51,287 nucleotides of DNA from a virus, in the IMG/VR virus record IMGVR_UViG_3300034071_002527, positions 1 to 51,287 of that record; one strand, written 5' to 3'. Within the stretch, counting starts at the first letter, position 1. Each line of letters begins with the position of its first letter. The notes under the pieces were generated by a model. The model worked only from the letters and a program-made list of their open reading frames with translations, made no database searches and was not told the origin of the DNA. The translations under genes were made by a program, and so were the position numbers. Positions 29,153-47,420 of this stretch are shown here, piece by piece.

Positions 29153-29199
29153 AAAAGCCTCTCCCCTATACATTTAGGGGAGGGGGGGGATTTTTTTTA
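29153..29199. terminator. Bidirectional terminator between convergent genes
   Basis: A-run, stem CTCCCCT...AGGGGAG, then a T8 run on the plus strand; the A-run gives a T-run on the minus strand. It separates the tail tube gene from 29197-29478. Confidence 0.85.
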
Positions 29200-29478
29200 G
29201 CTCTCTGTAAAAGAAAACTCTAAATTTTTCAATTTTTTGATTTTTTTTTCAGCAGATTTAAGGGCAGAAGCTTTTCGTTTTTCAAAATTTGCTTTTGCTT
29301 CTTCAACGGTAAAAAAGGCTGACTTTCCTAGAGTATACGCAGTGTTCAGGCCAAACTGATTTTTTCCCCTTGCGAAACGTCCACACTCTGAAATTTCGGC
29401 ATCAGTTAAATAAACCCCTGATGTTAGGGCGTACTCGGTGACATAGACTTTTAGCAGTTTGGGCTGTGGATTATTCAT
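29197..29478 (-). CDS. Small phage protein with C-terminal coiled coil, 93 aa
   Basis: The start LLKVYVTEYALTSGVYLTDAEI resembles a family of small phage proteins beginning with a V-x-K/E-Y-A-L-T-x-G-I motif. The C-terminal half is a Lys/Ala-rich helix (FTVEEAKANFEKRKASALKS). Role unknown. Encoded against the structural genes with its own promoter, like the other minus-strand islands. Confidence 0.55.
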   Translation of the reverse strand: MNNPQPKLLKVYVTEYALTSGVYLTDAEISECGRFARGKNQFGLNTAYTLGKSAFFTVEEAKANFEKRKASALKSAEKKIKKLKNLEFSFTES

Positions 29479-29512
29479 TGTAAATTTTTGGGGGGGTTAA
29501 TTAGCTGTTCCC

Positions 29513-29541
29513 AGCTTAACAAAAAATTTCCCCTCTGTCAA
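29513..29541 (-). promoter_or_regulatory. Probable promoter for 29197-29478, minus strand
   Basis: TTGACA with a 17-bp spacer to a weak TAAGCT on the minus strand, 34 bp upstream of the ATG. The -35 adjoins the left arm of the large inverted-repeat element. Confidence 0.5.
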
Positions 29542-29887
29542 CACTCACAAACTGTACTACTTAGCCCAAAATCAATAAAACTCAACCATATCAAAGGTTT
29601 TAACAATTTAGACTTTTAAAAATACCATTTAAAAATCAATAAAACCCAGTCATAGTAAGGCTTTGACCCGTTTGTACTATGTAGTAGGGGGGATAACTTT
29701 ATTTTTTTTTATCTCTTGCCCCTTTAATCATCACATTTAGATACTAAAAAAACATATACCTCAACGAGTCAAAACTGTTTTTTGCTTTGACAGGGTTGGG
29801 TTTAGACTTTTTCGTTTATCAGCCTTTCCTTGCACTTAGAGCGGGTCGTAATACTTTTACCATTAAACGATTTTGTGATGGTCTAGA

Positions 29888-29919
29888 GGGTAAAAAATGG
29901 GTAAATGGGGAAATGTGGG
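29888..29919 (+). other. Four-run G tract (G-quadruplex-like)
   Basis: Four runs of three or four G are separated by 8, 5 and 6 bases. It lies inside the core of the inverted-repeat element, next to the AT-rich tract. A second G-rich block is at 30088-30110 (G4, G4, G3, G2). Confidence 0.5.
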
Positions 29920-29920
29920 C

Positions 29921-29952
29921 TAAATATTTAAAATATATATTTAATTTTTTGG
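29921..29952. other. AT-only tract in the core of the inverted-repeat element
   Basis: TAAATATTTAAAATATATAT and following bases up to 29950 contain no G or C. An easily melted stretch of this kind is typical of, but not specific to, replication origins. Confidence 0.5.
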
Positions 29953-30021
29953 TAGGTTGATTTGTAAATACCCTAGAATTAAAGCACTCTAGTATCCTAT
30001 CCCTCACTCTATTTTTTTTTC

Positions 30022-30040
30022 GCTATGTATATAGCATAGC
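30022..30040. repeat. Short palindrome GCTATG-N7-CATAGC
   Basis: A perfect 6-bp inverted repeat follows a T10 run inside the core of the large element. It could be a protein-binding site. Confidence 0.5.
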
Positions 30041-30378
30041 ATGGGAATAAACAAAATGTCAAGAGGTAGTGGAAAAATATTTTTTTAGGGGTAGGGGTAA
30101 GGGAGAAAGGCAAAAGCATGAGAGTTTTTTAATGCGATGATTAAAGAGGTGGGGGATAAAAAAAAATAAAGTTATCCCCCCTACTACATAGTACAAACAA
30201 GTCTAAGCCATACTAAGACTGGGTTTTATTGATTTTAAACTGGGGTTTTTTAAATTCAAAAACGCTAAAACCTTTGATATAATTGAGTTTTATTGGTTTT
30301 AGGCTAAGTAGTACAATCAATTTATCAACTGTTCAAAAAGTCATTTAATTTAGAGATTCTAAACTCCAAGGGAAAGTT

Positions 30379-30384
30379 CGCTCA
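30379..30384 (+). promoter_or_regulatory. CGCYCA leader motif upstream of the chaperone gene
   Basis: TTCGCTCAAATT, 40 nt before ATG 30425; the first such motif after the large inverted-repeat element. Confidence 0.55.
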
Positions 30385-30424
30385 AATTATGATTGACATT
30401 TCCACTTAAAGATTTGATTTAATT

Positions 30425-30907
30425 ATGCCCGAAACTTTGCCTAAGACTTCTATAATTGCCCAATTTTTAGATGAAGGGGAACCATTAGGTACTTTAATGC
30501 TAGATGGGACAGAATATAAAATCACAGCCCCTGAAGATTTATCTGAAGCCGAATATATTGAATATTTTCAAGCTAGAGCAGAAGCTATGGATGTTTTGGT
30601 TAGTGTTTACGGTGTTGAAAATGAAGATGGAGAACTAATACTTGAAAAAAGTGTAGGTGCTTCAGATTCAGTAAAAAAAGCTAAATTAGAAGCTTTAATG
30701 TATAAACCTGCCCGTCGAATGGTTGAAGCATTATTAGGAGTACCGGCTGGGACATTTAAACGAAAAAGAAGTAAAACAGTGATGTCATTATACAATCATT
30801 GTCAACAACTTTTAGAAAAAAAACAAACTGTCGAACCAGTCATCAAAACACAAAGTGCTGAGGAAGATTTAGAAGTCCCTTTGGATGGGAGAATCGAGCA
30901 AGAGTAG
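30425..30907 (+). CDS. Tail assembly chaperone, zero-frame product (gpG-like)
   Basis: The 160-residue acidic protein has a short beta part (LGTLMLDGTEYKITAPEDL) and a helical remainder. Length, position between the tail tube and the terminase block, and a slippery site just before its stop fit siphophage gpG-type chaperones, which bind the tape measure and tube subunits during tail assembly. Unlike the usual arrangement, the tape measure gene is far upstream (7364). The stop TAG overlaps GTG of the next frame. Confidence 0.65.
   Translation: MPETLPKTSIIAQFLDEGEPLGTLMLDGTEYKITAPEDLSEAEYIEYFQARAEAMDVLVSVYGVENEDGELILEKSVGASDSVKKAKLEALMYKPARRMVEALLGVPAGTFKRKRSKTVMSLYNHCQQLLEKKQTVEPVIKTQSAEEDLEVPLDGRIEQE
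30877..30883 (+). promoter_or_regulatory. Programmed -1 frameshift heptamer CCCTTTG
   Basis: The heptamer fits X_XXY_YYZ in the zero frame (gtC CCT TTG). After a -1 slip the reading continues CCC TTT GGA TGG without a stop into the 30907-31218 frame. It lies ~20 nt before the zero-frame stop. This mirrors the G/GT arrangement of lambda-like tails. Confidence 0.65.
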
Positions 30908-32558: not shown

Positions 32559-33191
32559 TTAACGGAAATCACCGTCTCCCTGGATAGTACCCGCATTTTT
32601 GCGATTTGTCAACTTATTAGTGTTACCATCCATGACAGTTTTCAAATCACTATTCAAGTCATAGGCTAGTTCGTCTATTGTCAAGAACATAAGGATTAGG
32701 TAGGATTCACAAAAAACCTGTAAAAGAGTCAAGTCTTGATAATTAGAGTCACCACGAGCATATTTTTTGATAAGCCCTGCTAATGTTCCCGACGCAAAAT
32801 TAAGAGTCATATAAGTCGTGAAAAAATCTGATTCTTCAAGACTTTTATTAACTTCCGACTCTAGATAATATTGAGCATTAACTATAAAACTTTTGACAGA
32901 GCGATAACCAAGGTGAATACACAAACGAGTCACATAGTAAAGCATATCGCCTAGCTCTAAAAGCAACTTGGTTCGTTCTATGTCTAAAACACTTTCTTCG
33001 ACCCCTAGCTCACCGTCTTGATGACCAATAAGCAAGGCAAAAGAGTCGTTAGCAAATTCGTTGATTTCACTAATCAAACCGAGAGTAACGTATTCCAGTG
33101 ATTTTTCTGAAGGATATACGACGGTAGTGCTTGTGAACTCCCAGTAAGAAGTTAGTGCATTAACAAAGTCTTTGTCGAGGGATTGACGCAT
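32559..33191 (-). CDS. mazG: MazG-like nucleoside triphosphate pyrophosphohydrolase
   Basis: The 210-residue helical protein has the MazG-type pattern: YVTLGLISEINEFAND (E-x-x-E) at residues ~34-49 and LLLELGDMLYYVTRLC (E-x-x-D) at ~76-91. It ends VMDGNTNKLTNRKNAGTIQG then DGDFR, matching the N-x-x-K-L-x-x-R-K-x-x-G-x-I-x-G-x-G-D-x-R tail of phage MazG proteins. It would hydrolyse dNTPs or ppGpp-like nucleotides in the infected cell. It is a minus-strand island with its own promoter and terminator, inserted between PhoH and TerL. Confidence 0.8.
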   Translation of the reverse strand: MRQSLDKDFVNALTSYWEFTSTTVVYPSEKSLEYVTLGLISEINEFANDSFALLIGHQDGELGVEESVLDIERTKLLLELGDMLYYVTRLCIHLGYRSVKSFIVNAQYYLESEVNKSLEESDFFTTYMTLNFASGTLAGLIKKYARGDSNYQDLTLLQVFCESYLILMFLTIDELAYDLNSDLKTVMDGNTNKLTNRKNAGTIQGDGDFR

Positions 33192-33222
33192 AATTTAATC
33201 TTAGCTAATACCAGTTATATAG

Positions 33223-33251
33223 ATAATAGCACTTCTAAACTAGATTGTCAA
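33223..33251 (-). promoter_or_regulatory. Sigma-70 promoter for the MazG gene, minus strand
   Basis: TTGACA, 17-bp spacer and TATTAT preceded by GTGC on the minus strand, 31 bp upstream of ATG 33191. Confidence 0.85.
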
Positions 33252-33299
33252 GGGGTTTTTGCAAATCTGTGTTAAGACGCTTAAAGTTAAGGAAATTTT

Positions 33300-33305
33300 C
33301 GCCCA
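33300..33305 (+). promoter_or_regulatory. CGCYCA leader motif upstream of TerL
   Basis: TTCGCCCATTTT, 43 nt before ATG 33349. Confidence 0.55.
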
Positions 33306-33348
33306 TTTTTTTGATGAGAGTTTCGACAAACTTTGAATAGGGTTTTGG

Positions 33349-36204
33349 ATGTTAAAAAAGGATAAAACATTAAAGTTATATTTGCACCCAGGTCAACAAA
33401 CAGTATTTGTCAGTCCTAAAAGATTTAAAGTATTAGTCAGTTCCCGAAGATACGGTAAATCGAGACTCATGTTGACAATGATTATTGATAAGGCACTTAA
33501 CTATAAAGGGGCGTATGATAAAGCATCACCGCCTGTCGTTTTATTAGGAATGCCATCTTTAAAACAAGCCAAACAAATTCATTGGAATCCTTTAGTAAAA
33601 TTATTAGAAGGGCATCCTGGAATAGAGAGAATTTACAAATCTGAATGTCGAATTTCATTTAAAGGAAACAAACCAGATATAATTTTAAGGGGTTTAAATG
33701 AGGACAATGGGGACAATTGTAGGGGGCTAAAAATTTATTTCGCAGGATTAGATGAAATGCAAGACGTTAAACCTATAGCATGGATGGAAGTTATTATGCC
33801 AGCATTAATTGATACAAAAGGGTCATGCGCTTTATTGACAGGTTGTGTGGCTCCTAACACCTTTGTCTTACCTAGACAAGGCATGACAGAAATTGTTGAA
33901 TTTAATCAGGATAGTTGTGCAAAAGAGTATCAACCGCTAAAAGATGTTGAACTTTATGGACTCAATAATGAATTTCATAAGGCAGATTCTTTTTTTAATA
34001 ATGGATATACCGAGACAAAAATCATCACATCTTCTTTTGGATTCACTTTAGAAGCTTCTTTAAACCATCCTATTTTGACAAAAAATGGCTGGAAAAAAAT
34101 GGAAGAACTGAAAGAGGGGGACACTGTGGCTATAGCACATGGTATGGACATTTGGGGTACTAAAGACCCTATAGATGGTTTCAAAATCAAAAGACAATAT
34201 GTTCCTAAAACAAAAGGTTGGCTACAACCTAATCAAGGCATGACCAAAGATTTTGCCTATTTTCTTGGTCTATGGTTATCCCAAGGAACCCACAAAAAAC
34301 AAAATGGTAAGTATTACATTAGCGTAAAAACTACTACTCAACAAGTGAGAGAGTTTCTAGAAAGTGGTAAGATTTTAGGGGCTATGTTTAAACAAGATGT
34401 AGGAAATGTTTGGTCGTATGTAGATAGCGATTTAGTAGAGTTACTAAAGCATATTGGGATGTCTACTGTGAGTCGGAGAAGAAGAACCTTACCATTATGG
34501 TTGTTTCAAGGGCGTAAATCTTGGGCTATCTCTTTTATTCAAGGGTATATGGACATTGCTGGTTCGATTGGTACTACAGGTAACAGAGTAGCAAAAATTA
34601 TTCATTTCACTTGTAATAAAACATTAGCTCAACAATTTCAATTGTTACTTTCTAACTTAGGAGTAATTGCAAAAGTTTTTTTATTACCACATGACCCAGA
34701 AATGGCACAATTAGAACTAACTGGTTCACATTTTGATACTTATTGTCAATTAATTGGTTTTGGGTCTGATAACAAAAAAACAAGTAGCCTAGGAGTACAA
34801 AAGTTAAACCCTCCAGATGAACCGTTTAATTCTAATGACTATTTTTGGGACACTATAGAATCAATTAGTGACTCTGAAAATCAGACTTACGATTTTACAG
34901 TACCTAACACAAATTCTTTCTGGAGTAACGGGTTTATTAGCCATAATACACCTAAAGGTTATGGAACTTTTTTTCACAGTTTGTACGAAAATGGGGATAA
35001 ATACAAAGATTGGGAATCTTTCCATCGTACAATTTATGACAACCCCTTTATTCCTCGTGAAGAAATTGAACGTATAAAAGAATCTTTACCAGAAAAAGTA
35101 TTTAGACAAGAATGTTTGGCTTCTTGGGAAAATTTTGATGGTCAAATTTTTTCTGCCTTATCTACTGACAATATTATTTCTGATGAGAATTTACCTACTT
35201 ACTTTGAACAAGTATATTTAGGTGTTGACTGGGGAGATGTCAATCCTGCTTTAGTTGTGGTGGGTAAAATGGGTAACACTTACTTTATTATTGATTTTTG
35301 GGAAAATCCTAACCCTAATACTGCCATTGAACAACGAGTTCACAACGACAAAGCTCTTCAGTTTGTGAGTGAACACAATGTGAGCCGTTCATTTGCTGAC
35401 CCTTCACAACCCGGTCGAATTTTAACTATGAGAAAGTCTGGGATTCCTAAACTTATGGGGGGTTATAACCGTGTTAGTGAAGGCAATGGTATTGTAAACA
35501 CTTTACTTTATCAAAAACGCTTAATGATCGCCGAATCTTGCAGAAGGGTTTATGAAGATATGGGAGCATATCATCGGACATCTAAAGAAGGATTTATTAG
35601 AGAAGAAGTCGCTGAATCTCAACAAGACCATCTTTGTTTTGTGGCTGGCACACAGGTTTTAACAGAAACAGGATGGCAAAATATAGAAAGCCTGAAAGTT
35701 AAAAACAAAGTGTGGTCTTCTAATGGATTAAAAAATATTACTTTCACTGGTTCCCGATTGGCAGAAACGATAGAAGTTAAAGATTACAATTCTTCTGCTA
35801 TTGTGCGCTGTACTCCAGACCACCCCTTTTACACGAATAATGGTTTGATAAGTGCCGAGAACCTTAGTGTTATGAACCATTTAAACCATCTTGACCAATC
35901 TCAATGGGGGTCACTTATAGGAATTTCTAAAATAACAGATACTCTATGGTCAAGCCCAGCCCTAGAATGTGTAGGTAATTTCTCAATAAACCGAGTATAT
36001 AACATAGAAGTCGAGGAGTCACACAATTACTTCATCAAAATTGGCTCAAACGCAGTCTTAGTCAGTAATTGCGATGCTTTAAGATATGTGTTAGCAACTT
36101 TAGAACATAAAAACATCGAAAACATTATCCCAGAGGGTTCAGTCATTACTACACCAGAAAGACCCGTTACAAAGTCTAACTCTTTATTTGCGGGCTTAAT
36201 TTAA
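33349..36204 (+). CDS. terL: Terminase large subunit interrupted by two inteins
   Basis: The 951-residue precursor contains ~438 residues of TerL, the normal size, plus inteins at residues 166-533 and 763-907. The ATPase has Walker A SSRRYGKS (residues ~30-37) and Walker B YFAGLDEMQ (~129-137). The split motif III reads ALLTG/TPKGYG across intein 1. The nuclease domain includes YLGVDWGDVNPA and a C-terminal DHL/CDALRY split by intein 2. Both inteins interrupt motifs essential for packaging, so TerL can act only after two splicing events. TerL translocates DNA into the prohead through the portal and cuts it. Confidence 0.92.
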   Translation: MLKKDKTLKLYLHPGQQTVFVSPKRFKVLVSSRRYGKSRLMLTMIIDKALNYKGAYDKASPPVVLLGMPSLKQAKQIHWNPLVKLLEGHPGIERIYKSECRISFKGNKPDIILRGLNEDNGDNCRGLKIYFAGLDEMQDVKPIAWMEVIMPALIDTKGSCALLTGCVAPNTFVLPRQGMTEIVEFNQDSCAKEYQPLKDVELYGLNNEFHKADSFFNNGYTETKIITSSFGFTLEASLNHPILTKNGWKKMEELKEGDTVAIAHGMDIWGTKDPIDGFKIKRQYVPKTKGWLQPNQGMTKDFAYFLGLWLSQGTHKKQNGKYYISVKTTTQQVREFLESGKILGAMFKQDVGNVWSYVDSDLVELLKHIGMSTVSRRRRTLPLWLFQGRKSWAISFIQGYMDIAGSIGTTGNRVAKIIHFTCNKTLAQQFQLLLSNLGVIAKVFLLPHDPEMAQLELTGSHFDTYCQLIGFGSDNKKTSSLGVQKLNPPDEPFNSNDYFWDTIESISDSENQTYDFTVPNTNSFWSNGFISHNTPKGYGTFFHSLYENGDKYKDWESFHRTIYDNPFIPREEIERIKESLPEKVFRQECLASWENFDGQIFSALSTDNIISDENLPTYFEQVYLGVDWGDVNPALVVVGKMGNTYFIIDFWENPNPNTAIEQRVHNDKALQFVSEHNVSRSFADPSQPGRILTMRKSGIPKLMGGYNRVSEGNGIVNTLLYQKRLMIAESCRRVYEDMGAYHRTSKEGFIREEVAESQQDHLCFVAGTQVLTETGWQNIESLKVKNKVWSSNGLKNITFTGSRLAETIEVKDYNSSAIVRCTPDHPFYTNNGLISAENLSVMNHLNHLDQSQWGSLIGISKITDTLWSSPALECVGNFSINRVYNIEVEESHNYFIKIGSNAVLVSNCDALRYVLATLEHKNIENIIPEGSVITTPERPVTKSNSLFAGLI
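33844..34947 (+). other. Intein 1 (368 aa) with degenerate LAGLIDADG endonuclease
   Basis: Block A begins at Cys166 (CVAPNTFVLPRQGM). Block B is around SLNHPILTKNGW. Block G ends FISHN, with +1 Thr of the extein (TPKG). Between them are two LAGLIDADG-like helices: LGLWLSQGT, where the usual D is Q, and GYMDIAGSI, where the usual catalytic D is A. Splicing residues (Cys1, block-B His, His-Asn, +1 Thr) are intact; the endonuclease is probably inactive. Confidence 0.88.
35635..36069 (+). other. Intein 2 (145 aa), mini-intein
   Basis: It starts at Cys763 (CFVAGTQVLTETGWQNIESL), has block B VRCTPDHPFYTNNG, block F VYNIEVEESHNYFI and ends VLVSN before +1 Cys. There is no room for an endonuclease. 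The penultimate residue is Ser instead of the common His. The insertion lies at the conserved C-terminal DALRY nuclease motif. Confidence 0.88.
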
Positions 36205-42062: not shown

Positions 42063-42091
42063 AAGTCACCTTGCTTTGGTGATTTTTTTTT
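42063..42091 (+). terminator. Rho-independent terminator
   Basis: TCACC-TTGCTTT-GGTGA followed by T8-9, downstream of 41448-42011. Confidence 0.88.
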
Positions 42092-45461: not shown

Positions 45462-47420
45462 ATGCCCAGAAAAAAAGCATCCTCTAACAAAGTGGACAAA
45501 TTTAGCCACCCAGAGTATAATAGCCAAAATAGCTTAAAAGATGTCGAAGATATCGAAGATACAGAAGATTTAGGGGATAACTATCTTAGTGACTATGATA
45601 AATATGCGGAAGGTATTCGGGTATTAAGTTCTTTGGGATATACTTTCATTCCCCATTCTAACCCTGACTGTGTTGGACACAGGGTTTATGTCGATACGCC
45701 TTTCACCCTGATTTCTAAAGATGGTAAAACAATTACCGATGTTAACCCGCCAAAAAATTTCAAATGGCGTAAAAGAATTAGCCTTGGTGATGATTTACCT
45801 TTATTGTCTAATGCTTATTGTGATATTCGTTCTCAATGTGGTAAATCAGTTGGTGATTTTTGGAAACCTATGGTAGAGTTAGGTGGTGATAAACGAAAAG
45901 CCATTTTTAATCTTGCGTCCCTTTTTCTTGATGCTGAAAAGTTTAATTCCCGTCAAAAGTCTGATAACTTAATCAGTCTTACAGGAGGCGATGGTGGTTT
46001 ATATGTTGTCCCCCAAAAGTCTTGGTTTGACTCGCGTTTTGATTCCATTTCTATTGACGACCTTTTATACCTTTTTCCCTCTGCTGAATCTAAAATGCTT
46101 CAGTTCATCATTGGGCGGATTTTTGTGGGGCGTGGAGGTACAAAATCCGTTGAGGGTATTGTCGTTGAACATAAAGCCCGTTATATGGGTATAATTACTG
46201 GCGAACCTCGTTTAGGCAAATCAACCTTTTTAGACGCTATATCCGAAGCTATTCAATCTTTAGGCTTTGAAACTACTACCATTTCTGAGTCTAGCGGTCG
46301 TTTTGGTTGGGCTGAAATTGCCAGCAGTCATTTTACGTTTATCGATGACTTAACCAAAGAAACCCAACGTCGTATTATTTCTTCTGGCAAAATTAAACAG
46401 ATTGTTTCTAACAATGTTCTCAAAACTGAAAATAAGGGTGAAAGTGCTGTTAACACCCAATCCCAGACCGTAATTATTGCTAGTAGCAATTCTTTCAATC
46501 TTCGTGATTTCTATAACGCTGACTCTGGTATTCAAGACAGAATCAAAATCTTAGAAATTAAAACTAAGGCTGAACTTTGTAAAGACAAATCTTTACCCTA
46601 TCAGGTTGACGAAACTTGTCCTTTTAACCTTCATCGACATTGGCAATTTATTGCTGATAAGTACAATGTTTCTTATGAGTCTCTCATTTATTGGTTGATT
46701 TACCTTTGTGTTCAAGAATTTTTGTCTGTTGTGGGCTATACTGAGGAAATTCCTCTTTTTCAACCTGAAAAATTTCCAGATATTGATGAAGAGACTTATA
46801 AACATCTTCTGCGCTCTATAGCTCCTACTTTGAAAAAGACTAAGCCTTGTTCTCTTTATAAGACTGTCGAAGACTTAGAACGCAATTTCCGAATCCAAAC
46901 TATGACTAATTCTACTCAAGCTTTAGTTTACTTTTGGCGGTTTTGTCTCATTCTTTTCACTTATAACGTCGAAAAGAAACCATCTTTACCCCCTCCCGTT
47001 TTTGACGTTAATTTTCTTATTCACTTTTTAAAGGCACATCAAGCTTTTTATTCCCCTGAATTTGAACCCTTACGCACTTTTCTAGAGGCTGATTATCACT
47101 CTAATAACTCTCCTAAATGGCATCCTTATTCTATGTTTTTAGAGGTTAACGGCACTTGTATCTCTCAAGCTATTTTGAAATGTCTTGAGGCTGAAAATCT
47201 TTATTACCCTCCCGCTAAAATGGTAGAAATTAGTTTAAACTTTTTTACTTCTTCTAAAGGGTTTGAACTTCGTAAAGATTTACCTATCATTATGGAATCT
47301 TATTCCTTAGCTTCTGCTCATGACCCCTTTTTTGTTGACTTAACTTCTCATCTTTTTTATGAACAACCAGCCCTCTTTGAATTAGTTCAAAAGGCTAAAA
47401 GACAAGTCCAATCTCGATAG
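45462..47420 (+). CDS. SF3-type replicative helicase / primase-helicase
   Basis: The 652-residue protein has Walker A GEPRLGKST (residues ~247-255), Walker B FTFIDDL (~292-298), and the SF3 motif C IIASSN (~338-343) followed by an Arg-containing segment (GIQDRIKILEI). This matches D5/P4-type phage and plasmid helicases that unwind the fork after loading at an origin. The N-terminal ~230 residues lack a clear primase motif. The C-terminal part is helical. The start has an ideal AAGGAG site. It is followed after 14 nt by the next gene. Confidence 0.8.
   Translation: MPRKKASSNKVDKFSHPEYNSQNSLKDVEDIEDTEDLGDNYLSDYDKYAEGIRVLSSLGYTFIPHSNPDCVGHRVYVDTPFTLISKDGKTITDVNPPKNFKWRKRISLGDDLPLLSNAYCDIRSQCGKSVGDFWKPMVELGGDKRKAIFNLASLFLDAEKFNSRQKSDNLISLTGGDGGLYVVPQKSWFDSRFDSISIDDLLYLFPSAESKMLQFIIGRIFVGRGGTKSVEGIVVEHKARYMGIITGEPRLGKSTFLDAISEAIQSLGFETTTISESSGRFGWAEIASSHFTFIDDLTKETQRRIISSGKIKQIVSNNVLKTENKGESAVNTQSQTVIIASSNSFNLRDFYNADSGIQDRIKILEIKTKAELCKDKSLPYQVDETCPFNLHRHWQFIADKYNVSYESLIYWLIYLCVQEFLSVVGYTEEIPLFQPEKFPDIDEETYKHLLRSIAPTLKKTKPCSLYKTVEDLERNFRIQTMTNSTQALVYFWRFCLILFTYNVEKKPSLPPPVFDVNFLIHFLKAHQAFYSPEFEPLRTFLEADYHSNNSPKWHPYSMFLEVNGTCISQAILKCLEAENLYYPPAKMVEISLNFFTSSKGFELRKDLPIIMESYSLASAHDPFFVDLTSHLFYEQPALFELVQKAKRQVQSR

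Follow-up and report, generated by a model that had tools for sequence, protein, structure and literature searches.

A dispersed inverted-repeat module in Microcystis phage genomes with features of a replication-origin or regulatory element

Introduction

What occupies the one large gene-free gap in a phage genome that is otherwise filled with genes? The DNA analysed here, the window, is a 51,287-bp IMG/VR record from a relative of Microcystis phage Mic1 (MN013189); their TerL regions are 96% identical. Reading its list of open reading frames by eye bore out the earlier remark that the gap at 29479-30424 is the sole large one. A first-pass annotation had placed an inverted-repeat element in this gap and considered a replication origin, a packaging site or a non-autonomous mobile element. 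Our analysis indicated that the element is one copy, at a locus that we call A, of a DNA module of ~770 bases. The module is found at four or five fixed places per circular genome in Microcystis viruses. It resembles neither a gene nor a transposon; its appearance is that of an element for replication start or control.

Architecture of the inverted-repeat element

Computation recovered the inverted repeat. Its arms are 193 nt each, 85% complementary and separated by 377 nt. The left arm is located at 29553-29745 on the plus strand and the right arm at 30123-30315 on the minus strand, and both read inward. The extent proposed earlier, 29554-30314, holds for the element but not for its bounds, which are one base wider at either end. 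The left arm contains an outer box, two iteron-like units, an inner box, a G-run and a T-run. From the outside in, the arm order is a CTGTACTAC box, an iteron-like unit, a second unit 64 nt further on, a GTACTATGTAGTA box, a G-run, TAACTTTA and the T-run. The outer box TGTACTAC is located at 29553-29560, with a mirror copy at 30308-30315, and its columns in the arm alignment are mostly at least 97% conserved.

Each arm carries two AAAATCAATAAAAC-type units, as had been claimed, and their spacing is 64 nt. In the left arm these are found at 29568-29595, with the AAAATCAATAAAAC core at 29568-29581, and at 29632-29659. In the right arm, on the minus strand, the inner unit is located at 30223-30236, and the outer unit at 30287-30300 has one substitution. 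One of the four units carries CCAATAAAAC. The inner block, described earlier as about 40 identical bp, measures 44 nt, from GTTTGTACTATGTAGTAGGGGGG to the T-run. It is located at 29670-29713 and its identical reverse complement at 30155-30198. Mononucleotide shuffling of the 1.5-kb region, repeated 500 times, produced exact inverted words of at most 15, compared to 44 in the real sequence.

A tract with four runs of G, also noted before, is present in the window (29888-29919, plus strand), but there are no such GGG runs in copies A and B of Mic1. A G-quadruplex reading was therefore abandoned. A 62-aa minus-strand ORF inside the gap is absent from the cores of relatives, which differ by indels, and no conserved coding ORF was found within the element among the copies compared. 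Searching the element against Rfam gave nothing above threshold and two chance-level matches. A scan of the arms found no intrinsic terminators.

Distribution of the module in Mic1 and its relatives

A search of a phage collection with the window element returned Mic1 as the sole match. Mic1 contains full copies at loci A (88.9 kb) and B (22.0 kb), the latter having a third arm. At C (72.3-73.5 kb) a core is flanked by two arms on either side, D (53.9-55.5 kb) is a diverged copy whose core is longer, and site E (19.6 kb) is a solo arm. All of A, B, C and D are present in the 96.8-kb record G003, in which D spans the record ends (96.3-1.4 kb). The record G010 contains A, B and a full E. Loci A-D are thus common to Mic1 and G003 as arm-core-arm elements, with arms sometimes doubled.

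Among the 29 records behind the first loci, 10 match at E <= 0.001; short fragments and more distant phages make up the remaining 19. In a profile census covering 18 records, several of them near-identical, 66 arms were found in 16 records and none in the distant G025 and G018. In all 25 elements for which both sides are present, near-identical records included, the arms point inward. Scans of viral contigs with arm, iteron and core motifs found arrays in Mic1-like contigs only, and lone iteron matches in other viral contigs look like chance. Literature searches turned up no account of these repeats, and the repeat list in the available text of the Mic1 genome paper omits them (PMC7156551).

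Identity between arms is 0.838 within the same genome, 0.820 at the same locus in other genomes and 0.810 when neither is shared; the corresponding values for cores are 0.848, 0.833 and 0.800. Concerted evolution of the arms was considered and set aside. The effect is weak, and we place no weight on these differences.

A conserved promoter and a GC-free tract in the core

The GC-free AT tract pointed out in the first-pass annotation is located at 29921-29950. It is 30 bp long, the sole GC-free run of at least 25 bp in the window, and a candidate DNA-unwinding element. Beside it is a conserved dyad, CCTAG..CTAGG (29967-29997, minus strand), with one compensated pair across 13 cores. The short palindrome claimed earlier, GCTATGTATATAGC, is found at 30022-30035, where it overlaps the -10 side of a promoter and may be operator-like. 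This conserved sigma-70-like promoter, TTGACA-N18-TATGCT, occupies 30033-30062 on the minus strand and reads leftward.

Each hexamer, TTGACA and TATGCT, is present in 12 of 13 non-redundant A/B/C/E cores at a spacing of 18 nt. The exception is the B core of G011, with a single change in each hexamer. Mean pairwise identity among the cores is 0.937 in the AT tract, 0.930 in the promoter and 0.891 in the dyad, compared to 0.563 and 0.544 in variable stretches beside the promoter and AT tract. The consensus RNA fold of the cores is better than 100 of 100 column shuffles. Since a clear two-sided change is found at one pair only and the best fold pairs promoter bases, we restrict the claim of RNA structure to the small dyad. 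At locus D, the same order (AT tract, GATAGGTT, CCTAGGG, TTGACA-N17-TATGAT) was recognized by eye, with weak profile support. The sequence GTGGAAAA at 30069-30076 adjoins the core promoter and is retained in A/B/C/E cores. We take it to resemble one strand of a cyanobacterial DnaA box.

Strand skew and duplex stability

Cumulative GC skew in Mic1 is lowest at 52.6 kb and highest at 9.5 kb. The change-point is at 52.6 kb (support 52.5-53.0) for all bases, ~1.3 kb outside D, and at 54.0 kb (support 52.6-54.6) for third codon positions plus intergenic DNA, inside D. Skew of intergenic DNA only peaks at 54.0 kb with very wide support. In G003, the detrended skew minimum is at 0.97 kb, inside D, and the change-point at 1.0 kb (support 0.4-1.4). 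Plus-strand third-position skew in Mic1 is +0.070 for plus genes and +0.200 for minus genes on one side, and -0.213 and -0.106, respectively, on the other. Both gene strands agree on each side, which indicates that the replichore side, not the gene strand, sets the sign. The skew sign also changes across D in the fragment records G029, G032, G033 and G034, the first three of which are near-identical.

Because the skew changes sign at D in both Mic1 and G003, D is likely a bidirectional origin. No genome-scale switch was found at A, B or C, and A shows only a local 2-kb one. The earlier proposal of an origin is thus partly supported. The module is found at the skew switch in D of Mic1 and G003, and its AT tract is among the least stable duplexes of Mic1. 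Since the genome-wide skew does not switch at A, the window copy could be no more than a secondary origin, or else a copy with a regulatory role.

Among the least stable 40-bp duplexes of Mic1, those in B, A, C and D rank 1, 2, 3 and 5, respectively. These ranks were equalled by 43 of 20,000 draws of random noncoding blocks. A low-stability candidate unwinding tract is thus found in Mic1, and the evidence is weaker at D of G003 and in the window. In G003, 21 regions are less stable than the D tract at 40 bp. Six other regions of the window are less stable than its own AT tract at 40 bp, and two at 60 bp. These rankings count against the origin reading, as does the all-bases minimum of Mic1 outside D.

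In the distant G025, which does not have the family, the skew switches at 29.6-33.6 kb. This region contains a noncoding gap in which a 65-bp inverted repeat encloses one of the dispersed promoter units of G025 (L096:12932-13913, corresponding to G025 32932-33913). The G025 unit, TTGACA-N17-TATACT with the operator-like palindrome TGGGGTTAACCC, is unrelated to the module in sequence, and copies are found at 10.1, 17.9, 33.3, 41.2, 42.6, 45.9, 47.2-47.5 and 83.7 kb.

Several further sites were observed. A parS-like palindrome in Mic1 (L054:8828-8850) is located near the skew maximum, the inferred terminus, and a looser parS-like match at window position 42066 adjoins an ORF of the ParA region. 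At the left end of the window, positions 1-226 and 765-1051 match Mic1 at 17.8-18.1 kb and then at 51 kb; this is another rearrangement or a contig-end effect near the expected D.

A working model and a transcriptional alternative

We tentatively favor, at a little under even likelihood, a model in which the arm-core-arm elements form a dispersed, phage-specific, cis-acting family that serves as a replication-origin or regulatory module resembling baculovirus homologous regions (hrs), with D as the main origin and A as a secondary or regulatory copy. A phage protein would bind the arms at their iteron-like units and boxes. This bound protein and transcription that starts at the core promoter would together help to open the GC-free tract just downstream, and DNA synthesis could then start at the opened tract. 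The diverged copy D would act as the main bidirectional origin. Copies A, B and C would be secondary origins, or copies that share the protein binding D and that drive or insulate nearby middle genes. We infer protein binding, unwinding and firing at A.

A candidate SF3-type initiator is encoded at window positions 45462-47420, a primase homologue of Mic1 gp10. Mic1 gp10 has a DUF5906 match and weak RNA_helicase/VapE (SF3-type) matches. A PDB sequence search with the window homologue found no relative, and one with a 180-aa ORF gave nothing informative. No initiator-iteron pair was identified for the module.

Transcription by itself would be enough to explain a conserved promoter that faces a gene. 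The module could be a transcription-control cassette without any role in replication, in which the core promoter drives middle genes and the arms are operators, enhancers or insulators. Its targets would be the 93-aa gene family at A and B and the leftward replication operon in Mic1. In the window, the core promoter is followed first by a gene for a 93-aa protein (phrog_22725; 29197-29478, minus strand), with homologues gp18 and gp19 in Mic1. At A and B, the strong conserved promoter is directed at this co-oriented 93-aa gene or at gp93. The available text of an RNA-seq study assigns Mic1 gp18, gp19, gp89 and gp85-86 to the middle class (PMC11237433), in line with such a role. In the distant clade, in addition, the dispersed promoter units are plain and lack arms of this kind. 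However, the core promoters at C and D in Mic1 run antisense into the ends of rightward genes, conservation of the core extends ~100 nt beyond the start, through the dyad and AT tract, and D is located at the skew switch. We regard purely transcriptional control as possible but doubtful.

Partition and mobility

N15 has dispersed centromeres. By analogy, the copies might be a family of partition sites bound by a phage ParB-like protein, and the near-palindromic boxes repeated in the arms would suit this role. Mic1 carries annotated ParA and ParB genes and was proposed to be a plasmid-like prophage, according to the accessible part of its genome paper (PMC7156551). However, the annotated ParB has no Pfam match and a marginal PHROG match, the ParA matches are marginal, and the parS-like palindrome given in the same portion of that paper is located elsewhere, at 8.8 kb (PMC7156551). 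A centromere would also leave the AT tract and promoter unaccounted for, and we consider it improbable.

The first-pass annotation had raised a non-autonomous mobile element and noted that dispersed copies with target duplications in host genomes would argue against an origin. Such copies were searched for and not found. The exact arm motif has 0 matches across an 84,980-species genome collection. The window copy gave one 26-nt match, at chance level, in four Microcystis genomes, and the Mic1 copy gave none in 12 Microcystis genomes in a search without a positive control. A plasmid search found no copy of the element. At 17 copies, no target-site duplication was found beyond chance, judged against 2000 random site pairs.

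Several copies with inverted ends and the doubled arms would fit a MITE-like element that spread in this phage lineage. So would the optional site E, which is complete in G010, represented by a solo arm in Mic1 and unoccupied in G003, in a comparison without a clean empty site. In Mic1, the solo arm (L054:19510-19820) is located between direct ~30-bp copies of part of a gene that is Bro-like by eye, and this suggests that it arose by recombination rather than insertion. Some limited movement of the element is possible, given site E and the solo arm. Nevertheless, the lack of duplications, the four loci common to Mic1 and G003, the absence from the searched hosts and plasmids and a conserved promoter, which would be unusual in such elements, all argue against transposition, and we judge a mobile element to be rather improbable.

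An inversion between loci A and B

The left flank of the element in the window corresponds to the gp18 side of Mic1 B, and its right flank to the gp94 side of Mic1 A. The right-hand neighbor is a 160-aa ORF (30425-30907, plus strand) homologous to gp94, with no family match. The same arrangement is found in G001, G003, G008, G009, G010 and G011. The gp17 and gp93 flanks meet at B in G003, G010 and G011. Since the flank pairings at A and B are swapped relative to these three genomes, the sequence comparison indicates that Mic1 is distinguished from window-type genomes by an inversion of ~26 kb with both ends inside element copies A and B. A quarter of the genome thus seems to have been turned round by these two copies. 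An arm signature, TTGGTC[TG]GAAATC, accompanies the gp93 flank in each of the four records that have it, Mic1 included, which fits a crossover inside the element. One isomer is seen in Mic1 and the other in window-type records; the Mic1 genome was assembled from Illumina data into 12 contigs, which were put in order with PCR and Sanger sequencing, and its order at 770-bp repeats is therefore provisional. In G012, an arm and part of the 93-aa gene are located directly beyond gp4 (L142, 1-215), a further rearrangement at a contig end.

A and B are mutually inverted in all four genomes with both (Mic1, G003, G010 and G011), and in Mic1 and G003 each is ~32-37 kb from D. Recombination between them during replication might convert theta into double rolling-circle replication, with the inversion as its footprint. 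A crossover behind one fork would reverse that fork, with A and B nearly even about the origin, and the products would be the head-to-tail concatemers needed for headful packaging. By analogy with known systems this is conceivable, and we give it little credence. The partially available account of the yeast 2-micron and double rolling-circle systems likewise describes inverted repeats in a circular genome with one segment inverted (PMC3147054). In the phage, no site-specific recombinase was seen.

The same geometry would suit a polar fork barrier or recombination pair, in which the inverted A and B, at similar distances on either side of the inferred terminus, would stall forks or restart them. 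In Mic1 and G003, the promoters at A, B and C are all directed towards D. However, C is located in the middle of a replichore, each element is itself symmetric in its arms, and E in G010 has the opposite orientation. We regard a barrier as very improbable.

A packaging site is scarcely credible: the element is ~3 kb upstream of terL, and Mic1 TerL falls in a P22-like headful cluster in the available text (PMC7156551), but the module occurs 4-5 times per genome, with one copy at the inferred origin, and neighboring ORFs have no small-terminase homology. The ORF 1 kb downstream that had been put forward as a small terminase has no family match. A TerL-like ORF with intein/HINT domains is located at 33349-36204 in the window; such domains are likewise reported for Mic1 TerL in the accessible text (PMC7156551).

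Comparison with known systems and implications

The origin or regulatory module that we favor shares design features with several systems. In phage origins of the T4 oriF type, which are transcript-primed, a promoter is followed by a low-stability tract. The module core is similar in this respect, but it is flanked by inverted 190-nt arms and present in 4-5 copies. Iteron plasmid origins have spaced direct repeats beside an AT-rich tract, as does the module. Unlike in these origins, the module units are 64 nt apart and inside inverted arms, and a Rep protein was not found. To our knowledge, most phages have one or few origins and no long repeats. Mycobacteriophage MPME elements, as far as the available account goes, are also small elements repeated in phage genomes; the module differs in having no insertion footprint, shared loci and a conserved promoter.

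The favored parallel in design is the baculovirus hrs. In the portions of the literature available, these are palindromic, AT-rich repeats that recur around a large circular dsDNA genome, and a role as both origins and enhancers is proposed for them (PMC6669502, PMC2834656). An hr-like family should have multiple copies and AT-rich palindromic repeats; the former are seen at A-D in Mic1 and G003, and the latter in the arms. The skew switch at D and the duplex stability speak only indirectly for replication in cis. The hrs of these insect viruses are ~30-bp imperfect palindromes, whereas the phage module has long arms flanking a promoter and AT core. The likeness is in design only, and no sequence kinship is expected.

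If the model is correct, the module would be a bacterial-virus counterpart to baculovirus hrs. This freshwater phage lineage would then combine a mitochondrial-type DNA polymerase, a repeated origin-like module and an inversion between two of its copies. Origin use, copy-number control and genome isomerisation could then all be tested in one system. The analysis also supplies candidate origins, D and the noncoding gap of G025, and the module is a marker repeat for spotting Microcystis phages in metagenomes.
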